Below, piece by piece: positions 4,368-61,971 of a stretch of DNA of 64,000 nucleotides. Every line of letters starts with the position of its first letter. Positions within the stretch are counted from its first letter, which is position 1. This DNA is from an uncultured Macellibacteroides sp. (GTDB lineage: Bacteria > Bacteroidota > Bacteroidia > Bacteroidales > Tannerellaceae): NCBI RefSeq assembly GCF_963667135.1, contig NZ_OY762974.1:3410001-3474000 (forward strand), in the 5' to 3' direction. The position numbers were made by a program, and so were the translations under genes. The notes beneath the pieces were generated by a model. It saw only the letters and a list, made by a program, of their open reading frames with translations, did no database searches and was not told the DNA's origin.

Positions 4368-4451
4368 GTAACCTCCTTATTTCTATCTCCAAAAATAAGA
4401 ATAAATAGGATATTTGCTATTATATTTCAATCAGGATTGCCCCCATTTTTG

Positions 4452-4510
4452 ACTTAAGGGAGAATTTACGGGGACTTAAGTCATATTTTTTTTTCACTTA
4501 AGTGAAAAAA
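4452..4510. repeat. Phased ACTTAAG word array, 22-bp period
   Basis: The heptamer ACTTAAG occurs at 4452, 4474 and 4496, exactly 22 bp apart. The second copy is the centre of the palindrome GACTTAAGTC (4473-4482) and the third of TTTTTTCACTTAAGTGAAAAAA split by its dyad at 4499/4500. The spacer sequences do not match one another. The array lies between thpR and the cas3 fragment. It may be a set of operator sites or a member of the phased-word arrays also seen at 13512, 34375 and 61840. Confidence 0.7.
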
Positions 4511-13425: not shown

Positions 13426-13456
13426 CAAAAATACTTATTCTTATGATCGTGAGCAA
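13426..13456 (-). promoter_or_regulatory. Bacteroidetes-type promoter for DUF4250-crp
   Basis: On the minus strand TTG (13456-13454) is followed after 20 nt by TATTTTTG (13433-13426), matching the TAnnTTTG -7 box. Transcription would start near 13420, about 40 nt before the DUF4250 ATG. Confidence 0.75.
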
Positions 13457-13511
13457 TAGAAAAATGAATTTTACTCCTTCAAAAAGAGGATGTATTTTCA
13501 GTTTTTATCCA

Positions 13512-13639
13512 AAAAGTGAAGGCTATGATGGCAAAAGTGAAGGCTTTTTAGCGAAAAGTGAAGGCTGTAAAAGGCTAGCCTTCACTTTTAATTCGTTGAT
13601 ATTTAATTTTTTAAAGGTAAAAGTGAAGGAGTGAAGGCT
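13512..13639. repeat. AAAAGTGAAGGCT word array, 21-bp period
   Basis: AAAAGTGAAGGCT starts at 13512, 13533 and 13554, exactly 21 bp apart with unrelated 8-nt spacers. An inverted copy follows at 13576-13588, able to form a hairpin with the third copy, and a further copy (AAAAGTGAAGG plus GTGAAGGCT) lies at 13619-13639. There is no coding sense in the stretch. It lies in the 656-bp gap between the DUF4250 start and the umuC end. Confidence 0.85.
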
Positions 13640-13651
13640 ATTTTTTATATA

Positions 13652-13783
13652 AACTTTTCCGGGAAGAGAAAAAAAAGTACCGGGAAAGGCAAATTTTCCT
13701 CGGGACTTTTTGGTCAAAAAGTATATACTTTGAGTCGCCAAAGTATATACTTTTACAACTCAAAGTCCTATGTTTGAAAGATC
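13652..13783. repeat. CGGGA / AAAGTATATACTTT phased arrays, about 22-bp period
   Basis: CGGGA recurs at 13660, 13681 and 13701 (21 and 20 bp apart). Then the palindrome-like word AAAGTATATACTTT occurs at 13718 and 13740, 22 bp apart, each followed by a different 8-nt tail (GAGTCGCC, TACAACTC), and a third slot at 13762 begins AAAG again. The slot before (13696) carries ACTTT at the same offset. It continues directly from the GTGAAGGC array, so nearly 300 bp of this gap is phased repeat. Confidence 0.8.
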
Positions 13784-13860
13784 AAAATTATATTAAAATT
13801 TTTCACTCATCCGTTTTCATTTGATCCGGTTTATTGGGTAACGCAAAACCAAACGTCTAT

Positions 13861-13940
13861 AAACAATTAAAGGATATCTCACGACATCCCCTAACCAAAC
13901 TTTGTTAACCTTAAATCTAATACTATTATGAAAAAACCAC
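13861..13940 (-). ncRNA. Small RNA gene, copy 2 (promoter, conserved core, terminator)
   Basis: On the minus strand TTG (13974-13972), 19 nt, and TATCTTTG (13952-13945) form a consensus Bacteroidetes promoter. The predicted transcript starts near 13939, runs through TTTTTTCATAATAG and TATTAGATTTAAGGTTAACA, and ends in GGATGTC-GTGA-GATATCC (13889-13872), a 7-bp stem with one G-U pair and a GNRA loop followed by TTTAATTGTTT. The core from TTTTTTCAT to AAGGTTAACAA is nearly identical to a plus-strand copy at 26126-26197, whose terminator stem has different but complementary bases. It may belong to a known Bacteroidales non-coding RNA family such as Rfam Bacteroidales-1; I cannot confirm that. 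Confidence 0.75.
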
Positions 13941-14036
13941 GATGCAAAGATACGGGTTTAATTGGATTTGTCAAGATATTTTGCTATAAAACATGTTAAA
14001 CAACATGTAAAGCTGTTAAGCGTTTACGTAGGCTGA

Positions 14037-21464: not shown

Positions 21465-21675
21465 CCGTTCCTCGCAGGGTGTAAAAATGTATGTAACGGC
21501 AGGTCTTCTGACTTACTTCCTGTTTGGACGCCTTCCCATTAAGAACCTGAATTCTAAAACAGTGGCAAAGATATGTCCGCACGTTTGGACGAAGTTCACA
21601 GCAGCGGGACTGTCCGGGATTTTCACCCGGTTCCCTATTAATCTCACCCTCGGAACGGAGGAAGAGAACCATTAC
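21465..21675 (-). promoter_or_regulatory. Cobalamin riboswitch in the nrdDG leader
   Basis: On the minus strand the leader shows the conserved cobalamin elements in order: AGGGAACCGGGTGAAAATCC, then CAGTCCCGCTGCTGTGA, then GCCACTG, then GGGAAGGCG, and the B12 box AAGTCAGAAGACCTGCC (ending near 21498). The promoter box TATCTTTG is at 21688-21681, just ahead of the aptamer. A closing helix can form between plus-strand 21646-21658 (ACCCTCGGAACGG) and 21465-21480 (CCGTTCCTCGCAGGGT). Its 3' arm is 36 bp from the nrdD start, making it part of a plausible expression platform. No plain intrinsic terminator is seen, so control may be at translation. Confidence 0.93.
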
Positions 21676-21680
21676 GGCAA

Positions 21681-21688
21681 CAAAGATA
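21681..21688 (-). promoter_or_regulatory. Promoter -7 box of the nrdDG transcript
   Basis: TATCTTTG on the minus strand matches TAnnTTTG and lies about 10 nt before the first riboswitch bases. The about 110 bp between this box and the end of upp holds no other recognised element. Confidence 0.7.
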
Positions 21689-26036: not shown

Positions 26037-26125
26037 TGTTTGTTTTGCAGTTAAACGATGTTAAATATTGAAATATACAAGTAAAATGTTATGCTGGATA
26101 ACATATAATGCGTATATTTGCACTG

Positions 26126-26197
26126 TGTTTTTCATGGTATTAGATTTAAGGTTAACAATGAGGTTGGGGTTGTCGGGAGACAACCTTTTCTTTTTTT
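26126..26197 (+). ncRNA. Small RNA gene, copy 1 (promoter, conserved core, terminator)
   Basis: TATATTTG (26113-26120) is a good -7 box; the -33 element is weak. The predicted transcript starts near 26126, contains TTTTTCATGG and TATTAGATTTAAGGTTAACA, and ends in GGTTGTC-GGGA-GACAACC (26168-26185) plus TTTTCTTTTTTT, a clean intrinsic terminator. No open reading frame of note. The core is shared almost base for base with the minus-strand copy at 13861-13940, while the terminator stem differs at paired positions in a compensated way, which supports a real structured RNA. It might be a known Bacteroidales RNA family (for example Rfam Bacteroidales-1). The function is unknown. Confidence 0.78.
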
Positions 26198-32368: not shown

Positions 32369-34273
32369 ATGAAAACTATTTTAAAAAATATATTACTTGC
32401 GATGACTTTAGGTACGACTGTGTCGTTATCTTCATGTTCTTCGGATTTTATGGATGTTACACCTACCGATCAGTATTCTGAAGATGTGGTGTTTTCTGAT
32501 GCTGCATTAACGCAGTCTTTCATAAATACGATTTATGGTTATGTACGTCACGGAGCCGGCGAACATGCGATTTCCGCAGCTTCGGATGAGGCCTATTTTA
32601 CACATAACTACGGTATGAAAGCTGTAAACGAAACAGCAGTTTCCGAAAGTGACCTTCAGTGGTTTGATGATGGAAACTGTCCGTTCCGTTGGTATGATGC
32701 TTACAAAGGTATTCGTTATGCCAATCTTGCTCTTTCAAAAATCGACCAGGTTCCTGTAACATCGGGATACGACAATGGTCAGATGAAAGGTGAAGCTTAT
32801 TTTCTTCGTGCTTATATCTATACACAGCTTGTACGCGGATTTGGTGGTGTGCCAATCGTAACCAAAGTGTACGGATTGAACGATGTGGAAGAAATGAAGC
32901 AACCACGTAACAATGTTAAAGAGTGTGTCGATTTTATTCTTGCTGATTGCGAAGAAGCTATCAAATTACTTCCGGTAACAGTTAGCGATGCCAACCTTGG
33001 ACGCGCTACAAAAGGAGCTGCCATGGCTTTGAAGGCCAGAGTATTGTTGCAGATTGCCAGTCCGTTGTATTTCGACAGAACTGTAAATACCCTGGATGTA
33101 AACCAATATAATGGTGATCAGAAAGCACTTTACACATCTGCCCGCAAAGCTGCTTTGGATGTAATCAACAGCGGTACATATAAGCTTATAGATTGTAATG
33201 CTGGTACAGTAGAAGCAACAGCCGAGAAATTCCATAAGATTATTCTTGATGCGAATAATGAAGAGAAAATCTTTACCCGTCAGTTTGCACAAAAGGGATC
33301 AACCAACTGGTTGGTACTTCAACATGGTCCGAACGGTTACCACAACTGGTCTGGAGTAACACCAACTCAGGATTTGGTTCAGAACTTCGAAATGGCAGAT
33401 GGAACATTATTGTCTGGCTTTGATAAAGTAGGTGATACAAAAACAGTAAATCCTTATTTGAACAGAGAACCACGTTTCTATGCAACAATCGGTTTCGATG
33501 GTTGTGTATGGGGTCGTATACGTCCTGCAGATGCTTATCCTTTGGACCCAACTCCACTAGGTCAGTTGCAGACAGGTTATTACGAAGTAACTGGTGTTGA
33601 AAGTGAAGTGTCAATCAAATTGCCTCCATCCGATACAGAATTGAAATTTAAAGGATTGAACGGTATCGATACCCGTCAGGGACCAATCGAAGACTGGAAC
33701 GGATCATGGACAGGTTACTACGAACGTAAGTTGGTTGACACCTCTGTTGATGGCCAGAACTATTCTCAGAATGTACCTTGGACCTATTTCCGTCTTGCCG
33801 AGATGTATTTGATTGCCGCAGAAGCAAGCGTTGAATTGGATGAACTTGAAGATGCAGTCGATTATCTTGACGCATTACGTGCCCGTATCGGTATGCCGGA
33901 TACTAAAACAACACTTACACGTCGTGGTAAGGCATTCAATAAGGCAGAAATGCGTGAGTTTGTACGTCACGAACGTTTGGTTGAATTAGCTTTCGAAGAT
34001 CACCGTTACTTCGACGTACGTCGTTGGATGATTGCACCCGAAATCAATAAACGTCCGCTTACTGGTGTATTGGTATTTGGTCGTCTGAAACCAGGTATGA
34101 CTCAAGCTAAGCCATACATTCACAATGAAGAAAAGTACAACTACACTTACATTGTAAAGAGTCTTTCTTTCCGCGAAAACCGCGCATGGGACAACAAGAT
34201 GTATTTCGCTCCTATCAAACAGGCAGAAATCAGACGTAATCCTAGCTTGGTACAAAATCCGGGAATGGAATAA
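32369..34273 (+). CDS. SusD-family glycan-binding lipoprotein
   Basis: 634 residues with lipoprotein signal (SLSSCSSDFMDVTP). The RagB/SusD fold is shown by the helical N-terminal part (KGIRYANLALSKIDQVP, KGEAYFLRAYIYTQLVRGFGGVPIVTK) and the C-terminal FRLAEMYLIAAEASVELDELEDAVDYLDALRARIGMP and LVELAFEDHRYFDVRRWM. It is surface-exposed and captures glycans for the SusC barrel. The 12-bp gap after SusC indicates one operon; a strong hairpin terminator follows. Confidence 0.97.
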   Translation: MKTILKNILLAMTLGTTVSLSSCSSDFMDVTPTDQYSEDVVFSDAALTQSFINTIYGYVRHGAGEHAISAASDEAYFTHNYGMKAVNETAVSESDLQWFDDGNCPFRWYDAYKGIRYANLALSKIDQVPVTSGYDNGQMKGEAYFLRAYIYTQLVRGFGGVPIVTKVYGLNDVEEMKQPRNNVKECVDFILADCEEAIKLLPVTVSDANLGRATKGAAMALKARVLLQIASPLYFDRTVNTLDVNQYNGDQKALYTSARKAALDVINSGTYKLIDCNAGTVEATAEKFHKIILDANNEEKIFTRQFAQKGSTNWLVLQHGPNGYHNWSGVTPTQDLVQNFEMADGTLLSGFDKVGDTKTVNPYLNREPRFYATIGFDGCVWGRIRPADAYPLDPTPLGQLQTGYYEVTGVESEVSIKLPPSDTELKFKGLNGIDTRQGPIEDWNGSWTGYYERKLVDTSVDGQNYSQNVPWTYFRLAEMYLIAAEASVELDELEDAVDYLDALRARIGMPDTKTTLTRRGKAFNKAEMREFVRHERLVELAFEDHRYFDVRRWMIAPEINKRPLTGVLVFGRLKPGMTQAKPYIHNEEKYNYTYIVKSLSFRENRAWDNKMYFAPIKQAEIRRNPSLVQNPGME

Positions 34274-34296: not shown

Positions 34297-34345
34297 GGCG
34301 GTGCAGGAACTATCGTATAACGTAGTTTTTGCACCGCCTCTTTTA
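34297..34345 (+). terminator. Intrinsic terminator after susD
   Basis: A 16-bp stem (34297-34312 with 34323-34338; GGCGGTGCA pairs with TGCACCGCC, two G-U pairs inside) is followed by TCTTTTATATTT. Confidence 0.9.
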
Positions 34346-34373: not shown

Positions 34374-34462
34374 AAAAGATATAACTTTGCGTCTTTAAAG
34401 ATATATTTTTAAAGACGCAAAGTTATATCTTTTGAAGACGAAAGATATATTAAATTTCTGAG
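34374..34462. repeat. Four phased 22-bp AAAG units with a 24-bp inverted repeat
   Basis: Consecutive 22-bp slots begin at 34375, 34397, 34419 and 34441, and every slot starts with AAAG. AAAGATATA is at slots 1, 2 and 4; slot 3 begins AAAGTTATATCTTTT and so carries the word inverted. In addition 34374-34397 is a perfect 24-bp inverted copy of 34410-34433, forming a long hairpin across slots 1-3. The stretch lies between the susD terminator and the convergent flavin oxidoreductase end and is not coding. Confidence 0.85.
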
Positions 34463-34482: not shown

Positions 34483-35427
34483 TTAAAACCGTACCGACGC
34501 TATTCTCTCTGCTGCTTGGTTGAATGATAAAATAAGCTGATGCATTACGTTTTCTACAGTAGGACATTCGTTAATGAGGGCCGCAATTTGACCAATTTCA
34601 AGTTCACCTTCAATCAAGTCACCTTCAAATATACCTTTCTTTGCACGACCCTTACCCAAAAGGTCTTTCATTTCTTCAACACTTGCACCTCTGTTTTCGG
34701 CTTCTTCAACTTCCGCGAAAAATTCATTTTTGGCTAATCGGGTAGGAGCCAGCTTTTTTAACATCAAGCGAGTCTCTCCTTCGTTTAATCCAAGGCAATA
34801 TTGTTTAAAAGAGCTGTGGGCCGAACTTTCATGTGTCAATGCGAAGCGGGTACCAATCTGTACACCGTCGGCACCGAGTGCCATAGCTGCCAACATGCCT
34901 TCGCCTGTAGCAATACCACCTGCTGCAAGCAAGGGTAACGATGTTGCTTTTCTAACCGATGGAATAAGACAGAGGGTGGTTGTTTCTTCACGGCCGTTAT
35001 GTCCCCCTGCTTCGAAGCCTTCGGCTACAATCGCATCAACACCTGCTTCTTCGCATTTGGCTGCGAAAAGGGCACTTGATACCACATGAATAACTGTTAT
35101 GCCATGTTTTTTTAGAAATCCGGTCCATTTTTTCGGACTACCTGCCGAAGTGAAAACAATCTTTACACCTTCTTCAACAATCAGGTTCATGATTACTTCT
35201 ATTTCCGGATACATCAATGGAACATTTACTCCGAATGGATTGTCGGTGGCTGCTTTACATTTGCGGATATGTTCGCGCAGTACTTCCGGATGCATAGATC
35301 CGGCTCCAATTAATCCCAATCCTCCGGCATTGCTTACAGCCGAAGCCAGCTTCCATCCACTGCACCAAACCATCCCTGCCTGAATAACAGGATATTCTAT
35401 TCCAAATAGATCACAAATACTGTTCAT
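34483..35427 (-). CDS. NAD(P)H-dependent flavin oxidoreductase (nitronate monooxygenase / FabK-like)
   Basis: 314 residues from the ATG at 35427. A frame from 35484 is rejected because its first codons lie in the terminator hairpin of the upstream operon. TIM-barrel flavoprotein of the NPD family: start LFGIEYPVIQAGMVWCSG, FMN-phosphate loop LLAAGGIATGEGMLAAMALGADGVQIGTRF, and GFEAGGHNGRE with the His found in both FabK-type enoyl-ACP reductases and nitronate monooxygenases. Which reaction it performs is not resolved by sequence reading. The FMN-binding glycines are intact. Cytoplasmic. Confidence 0.9.
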   Translation of the reverse strand: MNSICDLFGIEYPVIQAGMVWCSGWKLASAVSNAGGLGLIGAGSMHPEVLREHIRKCKAATDNPFGVNVPLMYPEIEVIMNLIVEEGVKIVFTSAGSPKKWTGFLKKHGITVIHVVSSALFAAKCEEAGVDAIVAEGFEAGGHNGREETTTLCLIPSVRKATSLPLLAAGGIATGEGMLAAMALGADGVQIGTRFALTHESSAHSSFKQYCLGLNEGETRLMLKKLAPTRLAKNEFFAEVEEAENRGASVEEMKDLLGKGRAKKGIFEGDLIEGELEIGQIAALINECPTVENVMHQLILSFNQAAERIASVRF

Positions 35428-35449
35428 ATTGTTGCTTTTACATGAAAAT

Positions 35450-35482
35450 GCCTGCAAGATAAAAATATTTTGTCTTGCAGGC
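35450..35482 (-). terminator. Terminator of the DUF2892-trx-DUF302 operon
   Basis: GCCTGCAAGA on the minus strand (35482-35473) pairs with TCTTGCAGGC (35459-35450), a perfect 10-bp stem with a 13-nt AT-rich loop, followed by ATTTTC. Confidence 0.8.
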
Positions 35483-35513
35483 ACAGATTGAATAAAAGTA
35501 ATTTTTCGTATGC

Positions 35514-43360: not shown

Positions 43361-44206
43361 TTAAAAAGGAACCTCTTCCCATGAACCTGAAATTAACTCA
43401 CATGTAGCTTTGTAACCTGCCTGTTTGAGTAATCCAAAAGCTTCTTCTCTTCCGTCGTTCACTAAATCAGGGGTATGACAATCAGAGTTTACCATAACAG
43501 GAATATTCAATTCTTTCATTACTCTGAGATAATCGGCTTTAGGAAATGTTTGCTGTTTTTTTAGTAAATTTTTTGTGTTTACTTCAACAATAAGACCTTT
43601 CTCTGCAATTAGTGTAAGATATTCGTAAACTAATTGATGATACCATGAGGCACTGAAAGAAAAGTCTTTGCATTTGTGACCGTTCATGTAAATCTTATCC
43701 AAATGTCCTACTATGTCTATGCCACCTGCTGTAACCATTCTCATGGACGATTCGTAATACCGTTCTACTATCTTTTTTACATCTCCTTCGAAGTGAGTAT
43801 TTACAGCATTTTGAAAATCAGAAAAAGGACCATCAATGCATACCATGTTGGCCTCTGAGAGTTCTTTGGAAATAGGAAGAAAATGGACGGAACCAATCCG
43901 GTAGTCAAGAGGCAGATCTCGGAAGTAGGGGATCGATGCGTTATAACTTTCATCCAGGTAATCAATCTCCATTCCAGTGTAGATCTCCAGTAAATCACAG
44001 TATTTATTTTTAAGCCGATCTATTTCTGTAAGATACTCAGGCATATCGAAAGCGGACATATTCCAGAAAGTTTCGAATGGGAGAGGACCGTGCGAAGATA
44101 CACCATAGGCCCTGAATGATTTTGATACAGCGAACTTTACAAAATCCTCGGGTATACTTCGTCCGTCACAAAAAGAGCAATGGCTATGATAATTACTGAG
44201 ATGCAT
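43361..44206 (-). CDS. PHP-family histidinol-phosphatase
   Basis: 281 residues from the ATG at 44206; a longer TTG start at 44224 is less likely. PHP metal-site motifs: NYHSHCSFCDGRS (HxH), YGVSSHGPLPF, YTGMEIDYLD, GSVHFLP, DIVGHLDK and MVNSDCHTP. The set and length match HisK-type histidinol phosphate phosphatases of the PHP superfamily, which make L-histidinol in histidine biosynthesis; a related sugar-phosphate activity cannot be excluded. No his genes are adjacent. Confidence 0.9.
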   Translation of the reverse strand: MHLSNYHSHCSFCDGRSIPEDFVKFAVSKSFRAYGVSSHGPLPFETFWNMSAFDMPEYLTEIDRLKNKYCDLLEIYTGMEIDYLDESYNASIPYFRDLPLDYRIGSVHFLPISKELSEANMVCIDGPFSDFQNAVNTHFEGDVKKIVERYYESSMRMVTAGGIDIVGHLDKIYMNGHKCKDFSFSASWYHQLVYEYLTLIAEKGLIVEVNTKNLLKKQQTFPKADYLRVMKELNIPVMVNSDCHTPDLVNDGREEAFGLLKQAGYKATCELISGSWEEVPF

Positions 44207-61822: not shown

Positions 61823-61839
61823 ATCAAGTACTGGCAAAA

Positions 61840-61971
61840 ATGTTAGTACTTTTTGCCCGAAATGTTAGTACTTGTTGGGCGAAATGTTAGTACTTCTTTC
61901 GGCCAATCATATAACTTTGAGATGCCGGTTATATATCTTTGAAAGTTCAAAGATATAATTATTTTTTTTGA
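61840..61971. repeat. Phased 22-bp word array (ATGTTAGTACTT, then ATATNACTTT-like)
   Basis: ATGTTAGTACTT starts at 61840, 61862 and 61884, exactly 22 bp apart with unrelated 10-nt tails. The next slots in the same phase (61906, 61928) carry ATCATATAACTT and GTTATATATCTT, so the CTT stays in register while the word changes. TATATCTTTGAA (61932-61943) then meets its perfect inverse at 61946-61957 with a 2-nt loop. Non-coding, between copA and hppA. Confidence 0.85.

Follow-up and report, generated by a model that had tools for sequence, protein, structure and literature searches.

In the gap at 34374-34462 four successive 22-bp slots all begin with AAAG, and the locus raises the question of whether such phased words are peculiar to single gaps or belong to a wider class, and what keeps their period. 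We analyzed the window, i.e. the whole stretch of 64,000 nt (bases 3,410,001-3,474,000 on a single 4.46-Mb contig), and compared its source genome (the 'own genome' in the following) with a genome of the same species (G002), one of the same genus (G001) and the relatives G010, G021, G031 and G048. A record of Parabacteroides sp. isolate Gw_SlPrim_bin_25 aligns to the window over 8 kb at 97%, and Tannerellaceae includes Parabacteroides. The features discussed are collected in Table 1.

Table 1. Features of the window that bear on the phased arrays
Feature	Position	Strand	Remarks
ACTTAAG array	4447..4508	+	82% identity to a segment of a longer array, L029:3571-3632
Element E1, dispersed, palindrome-rich, 344 bp	13460..13803		full copy; holds the 13512 and 13718 arrays
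AAAAGTGAAGGCT array, period 21, then inverted copy	13512..13566	+	9-mer lags, TRF
Palindrome AAAGTATATACTTT, two copies 22 bp apart	13718..13753
GC-rich terminator-like hairpin, separate	34297..34338	+	after SusD-family gene 32369-34273(+)
Left hairpin arm, 26 bp	34374..34399	+	slot 1 (AAAGATATAACTTT + tail GCGTCTTT); sequence, fold, G002
Four 22-bp slots	34375..34451		AAAGATATAACTTT / AAAGATATATTTTT / AAAGTTATATCTTT / AAAGATATATTA
Right hairpin arm, 26 bp	34408..34433	-	slot 3, word inverted; loop between arms 8 nt
Nitronate monooxygenase family gene (PF03060)	34483..35484	-	3' end toward array
AAATGTTAGTACTT, three copies at 22 bp	61838..61895	+	upstream of hppA (H+-pyrophosphatase, start 62119)
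AAAGATATA-type words beyond the AAATGTTAGTACTT array	61906..61955		nearly the same 22-bp register

The anatomy of the locus largely agreed with the original prediction. The AAAG slots start exactly at 34375, 34397, 34419 and 34441, the slot with the inverted word is slot 3 within the right hairpin arm, and the inverted repeat described over the array is present, with arms of 26 bp and not 24 bp. The array consists mostly of the two arms of this one hairpin, to which an extra unit is added. When the minus strand is read, the end of the stem and the following bases read TCTTTTTTT, where four of the last seven T still belong to the stem and three lie beyond it. The hairpin is found about 50 nt past the nitronate monooxygenase stop codon, the flanking genes are convergent, and the minus strand of a 123-nt stretch folds with -40.6 kcal/mol (z -10.9). 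A stem-loop followed by a T run downstream of a gene is thus in place, as in an intrinsic terminator, from which the locus differs in its AT-rich stem made of array words and in having only three T past the full stem. Given the T run at its minus-strand end, we read the hairpin as the probable terminator for nitronate monooxygenase; for this locus a terminator would be the most economical reading, short of proof. In G002 one stem pair is changed on both sides from G-C to A-T, one T-A pair is broken to A.A, and one C-G pair has become T.G, which is an A.C mismatch on the minus-strand RNA; the stem still folds, more weakly (minus strand -25.0 versus -33.0 kcal/mol). No such array was seen by eye in G001 in the 430 nt past the orthologous gene.

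We analyzed the periodicity by counting exact 9-mer repeats in non-coding DNA at lags of 3-60, with five dinucleotide shuffles as control, in an own-genome sample of 864 kb composed of the window and 40 stretches (383 gaps, 74,563 nt non-coding). At lag 22 the count was 104 compared to 0.4 in the shuffles, and at lag 44 it was 37 compared to 1.0; lags 21 and 20 gave 36 and 17, and all remaining lags 10 or fewer. The predicted non-coding excess over shuffled sequence was therefore borne out in the own genome. Within the non-coding DNA of the window (6,563 nt) such repeats occurred over the same range at lags 12, 21, 22, 42 and 44 only. The 9-mer lags recovered the arrays predicted at 13512, 13718 and 61838, and TRF reported the same places with periods of 21-22; the array predicted at 4452, which is too short for the 9-mer test, has ACTTAAG at 4452, 4474 and 4496, exactly 22 apart. 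That the arrays lie only in non-coding gaps is correct insofar as the coding DNA of the first 400 kb of the own genome contained no 9-mer match at lag 22 (lag 44: three), but TRF placed one period-22 row, 43538-43580, inside an ORF.

The expected excess in relatives was found in G001, G010 and G021 and more weakly in G048, as judged in genome samples without shuffles. A lag-22 pair was present in 21 of 383 gaps of the own genome, 26 of 165 in G010, 4 of 181 in G001, 8 of 204 in G021 and 8 of 189 in G048, and the median gap count over lags 10-50 in these five genomes was 0 or 1. The excess in G048 is mixed with 7-bp microsatellites (lag 21, 12 gaps; lag 14, 10 gaps), and in G021 lags 41 and 42 reached 18 and 16 gaps. 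G021 (L263-L282) carries a second repeat class of period 41-42 (lag 41 count 861), equal in length to the 41-nt repeats mentioned for the PgRS elements of Porphyromonas gingivalis (PMC4596501). A 41-bp tandem unit with the palindrome AAAGTAATTACTTT was also seen in the Bacteroidaceae MAG RGIG858 (L082:7694-7953 and L087:3125-3466). In 8-kb control loci, which were picked by an AT-rich pattern and classed by title and are hence not a random sample, lag-22 pairs remained after masking of the pattern in 1 of 18 gaps of Parabacteroides-labelled loci, 1 of 96 of other Bacteroidota-labelled loci and 1 of 217 of the rest. A small sample of other families (5 × 20 kb) contained lag-22 pairs in L292 and L294 and none in L290, L291 and L293.

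Each locus had been thought to use its own word, which did not hold: words recur across loci, and AAAGTATATACTTT alone has 21 occurrences in the own genome (reversed control 0). In 78 other genomes of the order, sampled at one per family except for the own family, the same word was found 0 or 1 times each. Further words of the own genome are AAAGATATATCTTT, AAATGTTAGTACTT, ACTTAAG, GACAGTTGTC and AAAGTGAAGG, the latter with period 21. Among the arrays listed, a lower bound for G010 and G048, the words of G010 include GAGGTACCTC and CTACCGGTAG, those of G001 and G021 are different again, and AAAGATATA is common to the own genome and G001; the 22-bp arrays of G021 are long and fairly uniform. 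The repeats occur in several genera of the family, with other words and the same period. A scan of genome contigs for the word-pair pattern gave 118 stretches, and among the 80 listed were nine loci with an 8-nt spacer: four in records of the MAG of the same species, one in Prevotella brunnea (L107) and four in unrelated taxa (L068, L098, L115 and L120), from which it follows that an 8-nt spacer of this AT-rich word alone is no mark of the family. We rejected an origin from phages or plasmids: the composite array L029:3560-3860 had no match in phages or plasmids, window positions 13440-13830 had none in plasmids, AAAGTATATACTTT-N8-AAAGTATATACTTT gave 0 hits in viral contigs, and GAGGTACSTC pairs in four viral stretches showed spacings, taken from the match lengths, of 20, 23, 24 and 20. 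The Bacteroides -7 box is TAnnTTTG, which the complement of AAAGATATA resembles; a promoter reading of this word would not extend to the other words, which do not fit by eye.

For the register between words we used W1 AAAGATATA, W2 AAGTATATACTT, W2b GTTAGTACTT, W2c GTTAGGACTT, W4 ACTTAAG and W5 GACAGTTGTC, omitting the period-21 word AAAGTGAAGG; the words were first spotted among lag-22 hits, and the counts are therefore partly pre-selected. Centre distances of 8-115 bp between copies of the same word in the own genome were 22 (28 pairs), 44 (14), 66 (5) and 27 (1), so that 47 of 48 agree with the lattice. For pairs of unlike words, which are not independent, 22 of 27 distances equalled a multiple of 22 or exceeded one by up to 3 bp, over separations as large as 113 bp. 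Adjacent steps of at most 70 bp measured 22 or 44 in 31 of 32 cases in the own genome, 44 of 44 in G010 and 9 of 10 in G001, and after removal of near-identical steps in 24 of 25 (own) and 12 of 12 (G010). A less selected test took the direct distances of all 10-mers found in at least three gaps; among the top distances listed, 24 of 62 in the own genome, 12 of 14 in G001 and 97 of 152 in G010 were 22, 44, 66 or 88, and the corresponding figures for G048 and G021 were 1 of 7 and about 11 of 60. The spacings of AAAGTATATACTTT in a related genome (L086, L132) were 23, 23 and 22. Perfect palindromes were spaced by 22 (20 pairs), 44 (8) and 41 (3) when of the same word, and by 11 (9), 33 (6), 55 (5) and 44 (3) when of different words, mostly in G010; we put little weight on palindrome axes at 11, because these partly follow from period 22 combined with palindromy. 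The counts suggest that the spacing along the helix, rather than the word, is the kept trait. An almost exception-free register fits sites for a putative binder on one helix face, and the predicted protein sites on one face of the helix are accordingly in line with the register (47 of 48 and 31 of 32), while the binder itself is putative.

The tails between the words had been called unrelated, which did not survive measurement: tail centres at lag 22 are on average 42% identical in the own genome and 64% in G010, compared to a background of 27.5%. The argument that tandem duplication would keep tails similar can therefore not serve to exclude it, since this residual identity permits tandem duplication. 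Conserved runs were palindromic in 19 of 32 cases in the own genome (7.4 expected from shuffled words) and in 35 of 61 in G010 (9.9 expected), and did not exceed expectation in G001 (1 of 10, 2.2 expected), G048 (1 of 8, 0.8 expected) and G021 (0 of 24, 4.0 expected). The inverted identity of tails around palindromic words was 0.50 versus 0.36 in the control in the own genome and 0.45 versus 0.40 in G010. Large palindromes made of smaller ones, about 60-105 bp long, were noted at L010:14557-14661, L031:7544-7652, L011:6475-6578, L030:2909-3012 and L047:16450-16510, with a partner match in both orientations or a self-fold over most of their length.

The region 13512-13783, described as one of the array loci, turned out to be part of one copy of the dispersed element E1, which has fixed ends. 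The own genome holds five full copies, the one at 13460 included, and six partial loci; G002 holds six full copies with ends identical to these, and no full copy was found in G001. E1 is thus a multi-copy non-coding element with fixed ends, as MITEs are. The ends read AAAAAT...AATTTT...CTTTC, with an imperfect AAAAAT..AATTTTnnnCYTTCAAA at both ends by eye, and no target-site duplication was visible by eye beside the full copies. We compared five of the six full G002 copies with the own genome, leaving out G002:C27, and at each of these sites the own genome holds E1 or a remnant, so that no new insertion was seen among the five. Two sites are full in both genomes, one has lost about 96 bp internally in the own genome (L300 versus L332 in G002), and two are reduced to a part in the own genome, with orthology judged by one flank. 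At the G002 site corresponding to the copy in the window, the contig begins within the adjacent repeat. One own copy (L296) forms a long perfect hairpin where the orthologous G002 copy (L326) is a two-word array, which implies that arrays and hairpins interconvert at one site; the appearance of the L296 palindrome suggests that one arm served as template for its partner, possibly by template switching. Adjoining E1, a 78%-identical reverse copy (~13861-13954) of a match to the FopS sRNA family (RF04319; window 26125-26197) was observed, and about 160 bp around it match several places in G001 and G002. A cobalamin riboswitch (RF00174, 103 bits) is found at 21481-21688 on the minus strand of the window.

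Upstream of hppA the spacing is 22 bp throughout while the words differ: the own genome has three copies of AAATGTTAGTACTT, G010 has four near copies of TATGAGGTACCTCA, and in G031 the word is another one. A lag-22 9-mer pair was present upstream of hppA in 4 of 30 loci (own, G010, G031 and L189, the last with a single pair) and absent from the other 26, including those of G001 and G002; the G002 array is visible, yet drifted beyond exact-9-mer detection. Comparing the own genome with G002 over 61836-61955, we found 20 of 120 sites substituted and 0 indels, and in the remainder of the gap 33 of 162 sites differed with one indel, a comparison that covers this single array, where array and rest of the gap are both indel-poor. 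The third word is AAATGTTAGTACTT in the own genome and AAAAGTATATACTT in G002. Overall, three kinds of change separate the arrays of the own genome from those of G002: substitutions, the loss of blocks, and the conversion of an array into a long hairpin or the reverse.

The orientation of the gaps was evaluated in five genomes with simple ORF calls, and arrays were present in 11 of 155 gaps between convergent genes, in 33 of 539 between tandem genes and in 19 of 216 between divergent ones. Divergent gaps carry arrays roughly as often as convergent gaps do, which speaks against termination, and against promoter control as well, as what the arrays do in general. In the 11 array-bearing tandem gaps of the own genome, the array always keeps at least 87 bp from the downstream start, and in 6 of them it is within 71 bp of the upstream gene end; some G010 arrays are found at 1-37 bp from a downstream start called in the same simple way.

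A register that persists as words and tails turn over would be explained most simply by protein binding on a single helix face. We therefore tentatively, and with less than even confidence, regard the arrays as the functional units of palindrome-rich repeats dispersed outside genes, in which putative proteins on one face of the helix would maintain the 22-bp phase. The words, often palindromic, would be bound by dimeric DNA-binding proteins side by side, an indel would break the array, a changed word would merely change the binding partner, and at 34374 the 26-bp hairpin of such words would double as an intrinsic terminator on the minus strand. It is conceivable, though we think it unlikely, that in a lineage of Bacteroidales the arrays are landing lattices, spread along the chromosome, for fast-changing DNA-binding proteins, with a conserved 22-bp register and words that co-evolve with their binders by species, in the manner of centromere or hotspot sequences. 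Plain minisatellites, i.e. functionless 22-bp units that arise by tandem duplication and drift and owe their period to the mutational mechanism, are a serious possibility, albeit a doubtful one. The residual tail identity (0.42 in the own genome, 0.64 in G010, background 0.275) argues for them, as do the long and fairly uniform 22-bp arrays of G021, the loss of about 96 bp within a repeat array in L300 versus L332 and the scarcity of indels also outside the array in the hppA gap (1 in 162). However, a single unit length is shared by unrelated words in several genera, different words within one array keep a common register, and we know of no slippage process with, or tied to, a 22-bp unit.

That the arrays in general are intrinsic terminators or RNA hairpins, i.e. 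3'-end stem-loops of transcripts, appears improbable to us. The hairpin at 34374 suits this idea in its position between convergent genes, its T run and its fold, and so does the two-sided change of one stem pair in G002, but two further stem pairs are hit there and the fold is weaker, divergent gaps hold arrays about as often as convergent ones, and hairpins do not require a 22-bp register across different words. Dimeric regulators typically bind palindromic words of 10-14 bp that are two turns apart, and this general pattern, together with the G010 arrays near called starts, would favor a role as promoter-located operator arrays for ordinary local regulators; we consider this quite improbable, as convergent gaps such as that of 34374 hold arrays too and the tandem-gap arrays of the own genome keep at least 87 bp from the downstream start and often lie near the upstream gene end. 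Least probable by our estimate are REP/BIME repeats that owe their spread to a REP-associated tyrosine transposase. The arrays resemble these as clustered multi-copy extragenic palindromes, and Y1_Tnp (PF01797) matches were found in G010 (two) and G021 (one), but unit and period are unlike those of REPs, and the own genome gave 0 matches where 5 of 14 control genomes were positive, for which reason RAYT/REP was rejected for the own genome unless its transposase has been lost. No Y1_Tnp match was found in G001, G002, G031 and G048 either, with G002 and G031 being incomplete.

Short bacterial repeats are usually classed by sequence, whereas here the sequence turns over and the spacing persists; programs that search for repeats by sequence would list unrelated minisatellites and overlook the 22-bp class. 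We found no description of such a class in Bacteroidales in the literature searched, a collection which omits many journals and which yielded papers on BrickBuilt and REP elements. If a protein holds the register, the arrays would be a chromosome-wide binding system; if none does, a period fixed at 22 bp suggests that the mutational mechanism itself contains a ruler. Iterons and phased protein-site arrays consist of direct repeats near 22 bp on one helix face. The arrays studied here differ from iterons in being chromosomal, at many loci and with many words, and of two composite arrays neither had a plasmid match, and the one compared with phages had no match there either. CRISPR, which the original prediction had already set aside, is excluded: its repeats are 24-48 bp long (PMC3733652) with regularly sized unique spacers, and here word and tail together measure 22 bp, of which the tail takes up about 8 nt. 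With REP/BIME repeats of the GTAG and CGTC families (PMC3733652), the arrays share extragenic palindromes that are multi-copy, clustered and in both orientations, and differ from them in having no RAYT match, a conserved word of 10-14 bp and a fixed 22-bp lattice. BrickBuilt of P. gingivalis (PMC4596501) is a minisatellite-MITE with one unit sequence of 23 nt, a leader and a tail and IS5-like TIRs, reported there by its authors from P. gingivalis and P. gulae only. The predicted loose likeness to BrickBuilt is right in kind for 13460-13803, which is dispersed, has fixed ends and contains short-period arrays, but the element is not BrickBuilt: the periods are 22 (or 21, 20) with a lag-23 count of 1, and the E1 ends AAAAAT...AATTTT...CTTTC do not correspond to the TIRs GAGACCTTTGCA / TGCAAAGGTCTC (Table 2 of PMC4596501). 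BrickBuilt and the arrays of the own genome are both intergenic and dispersed, with short tandem imperfect units in a larger element of Bacteroidales, whereas the latter are distinguished by many words per genome, a period of 22, other ends and word sets that vary between species.
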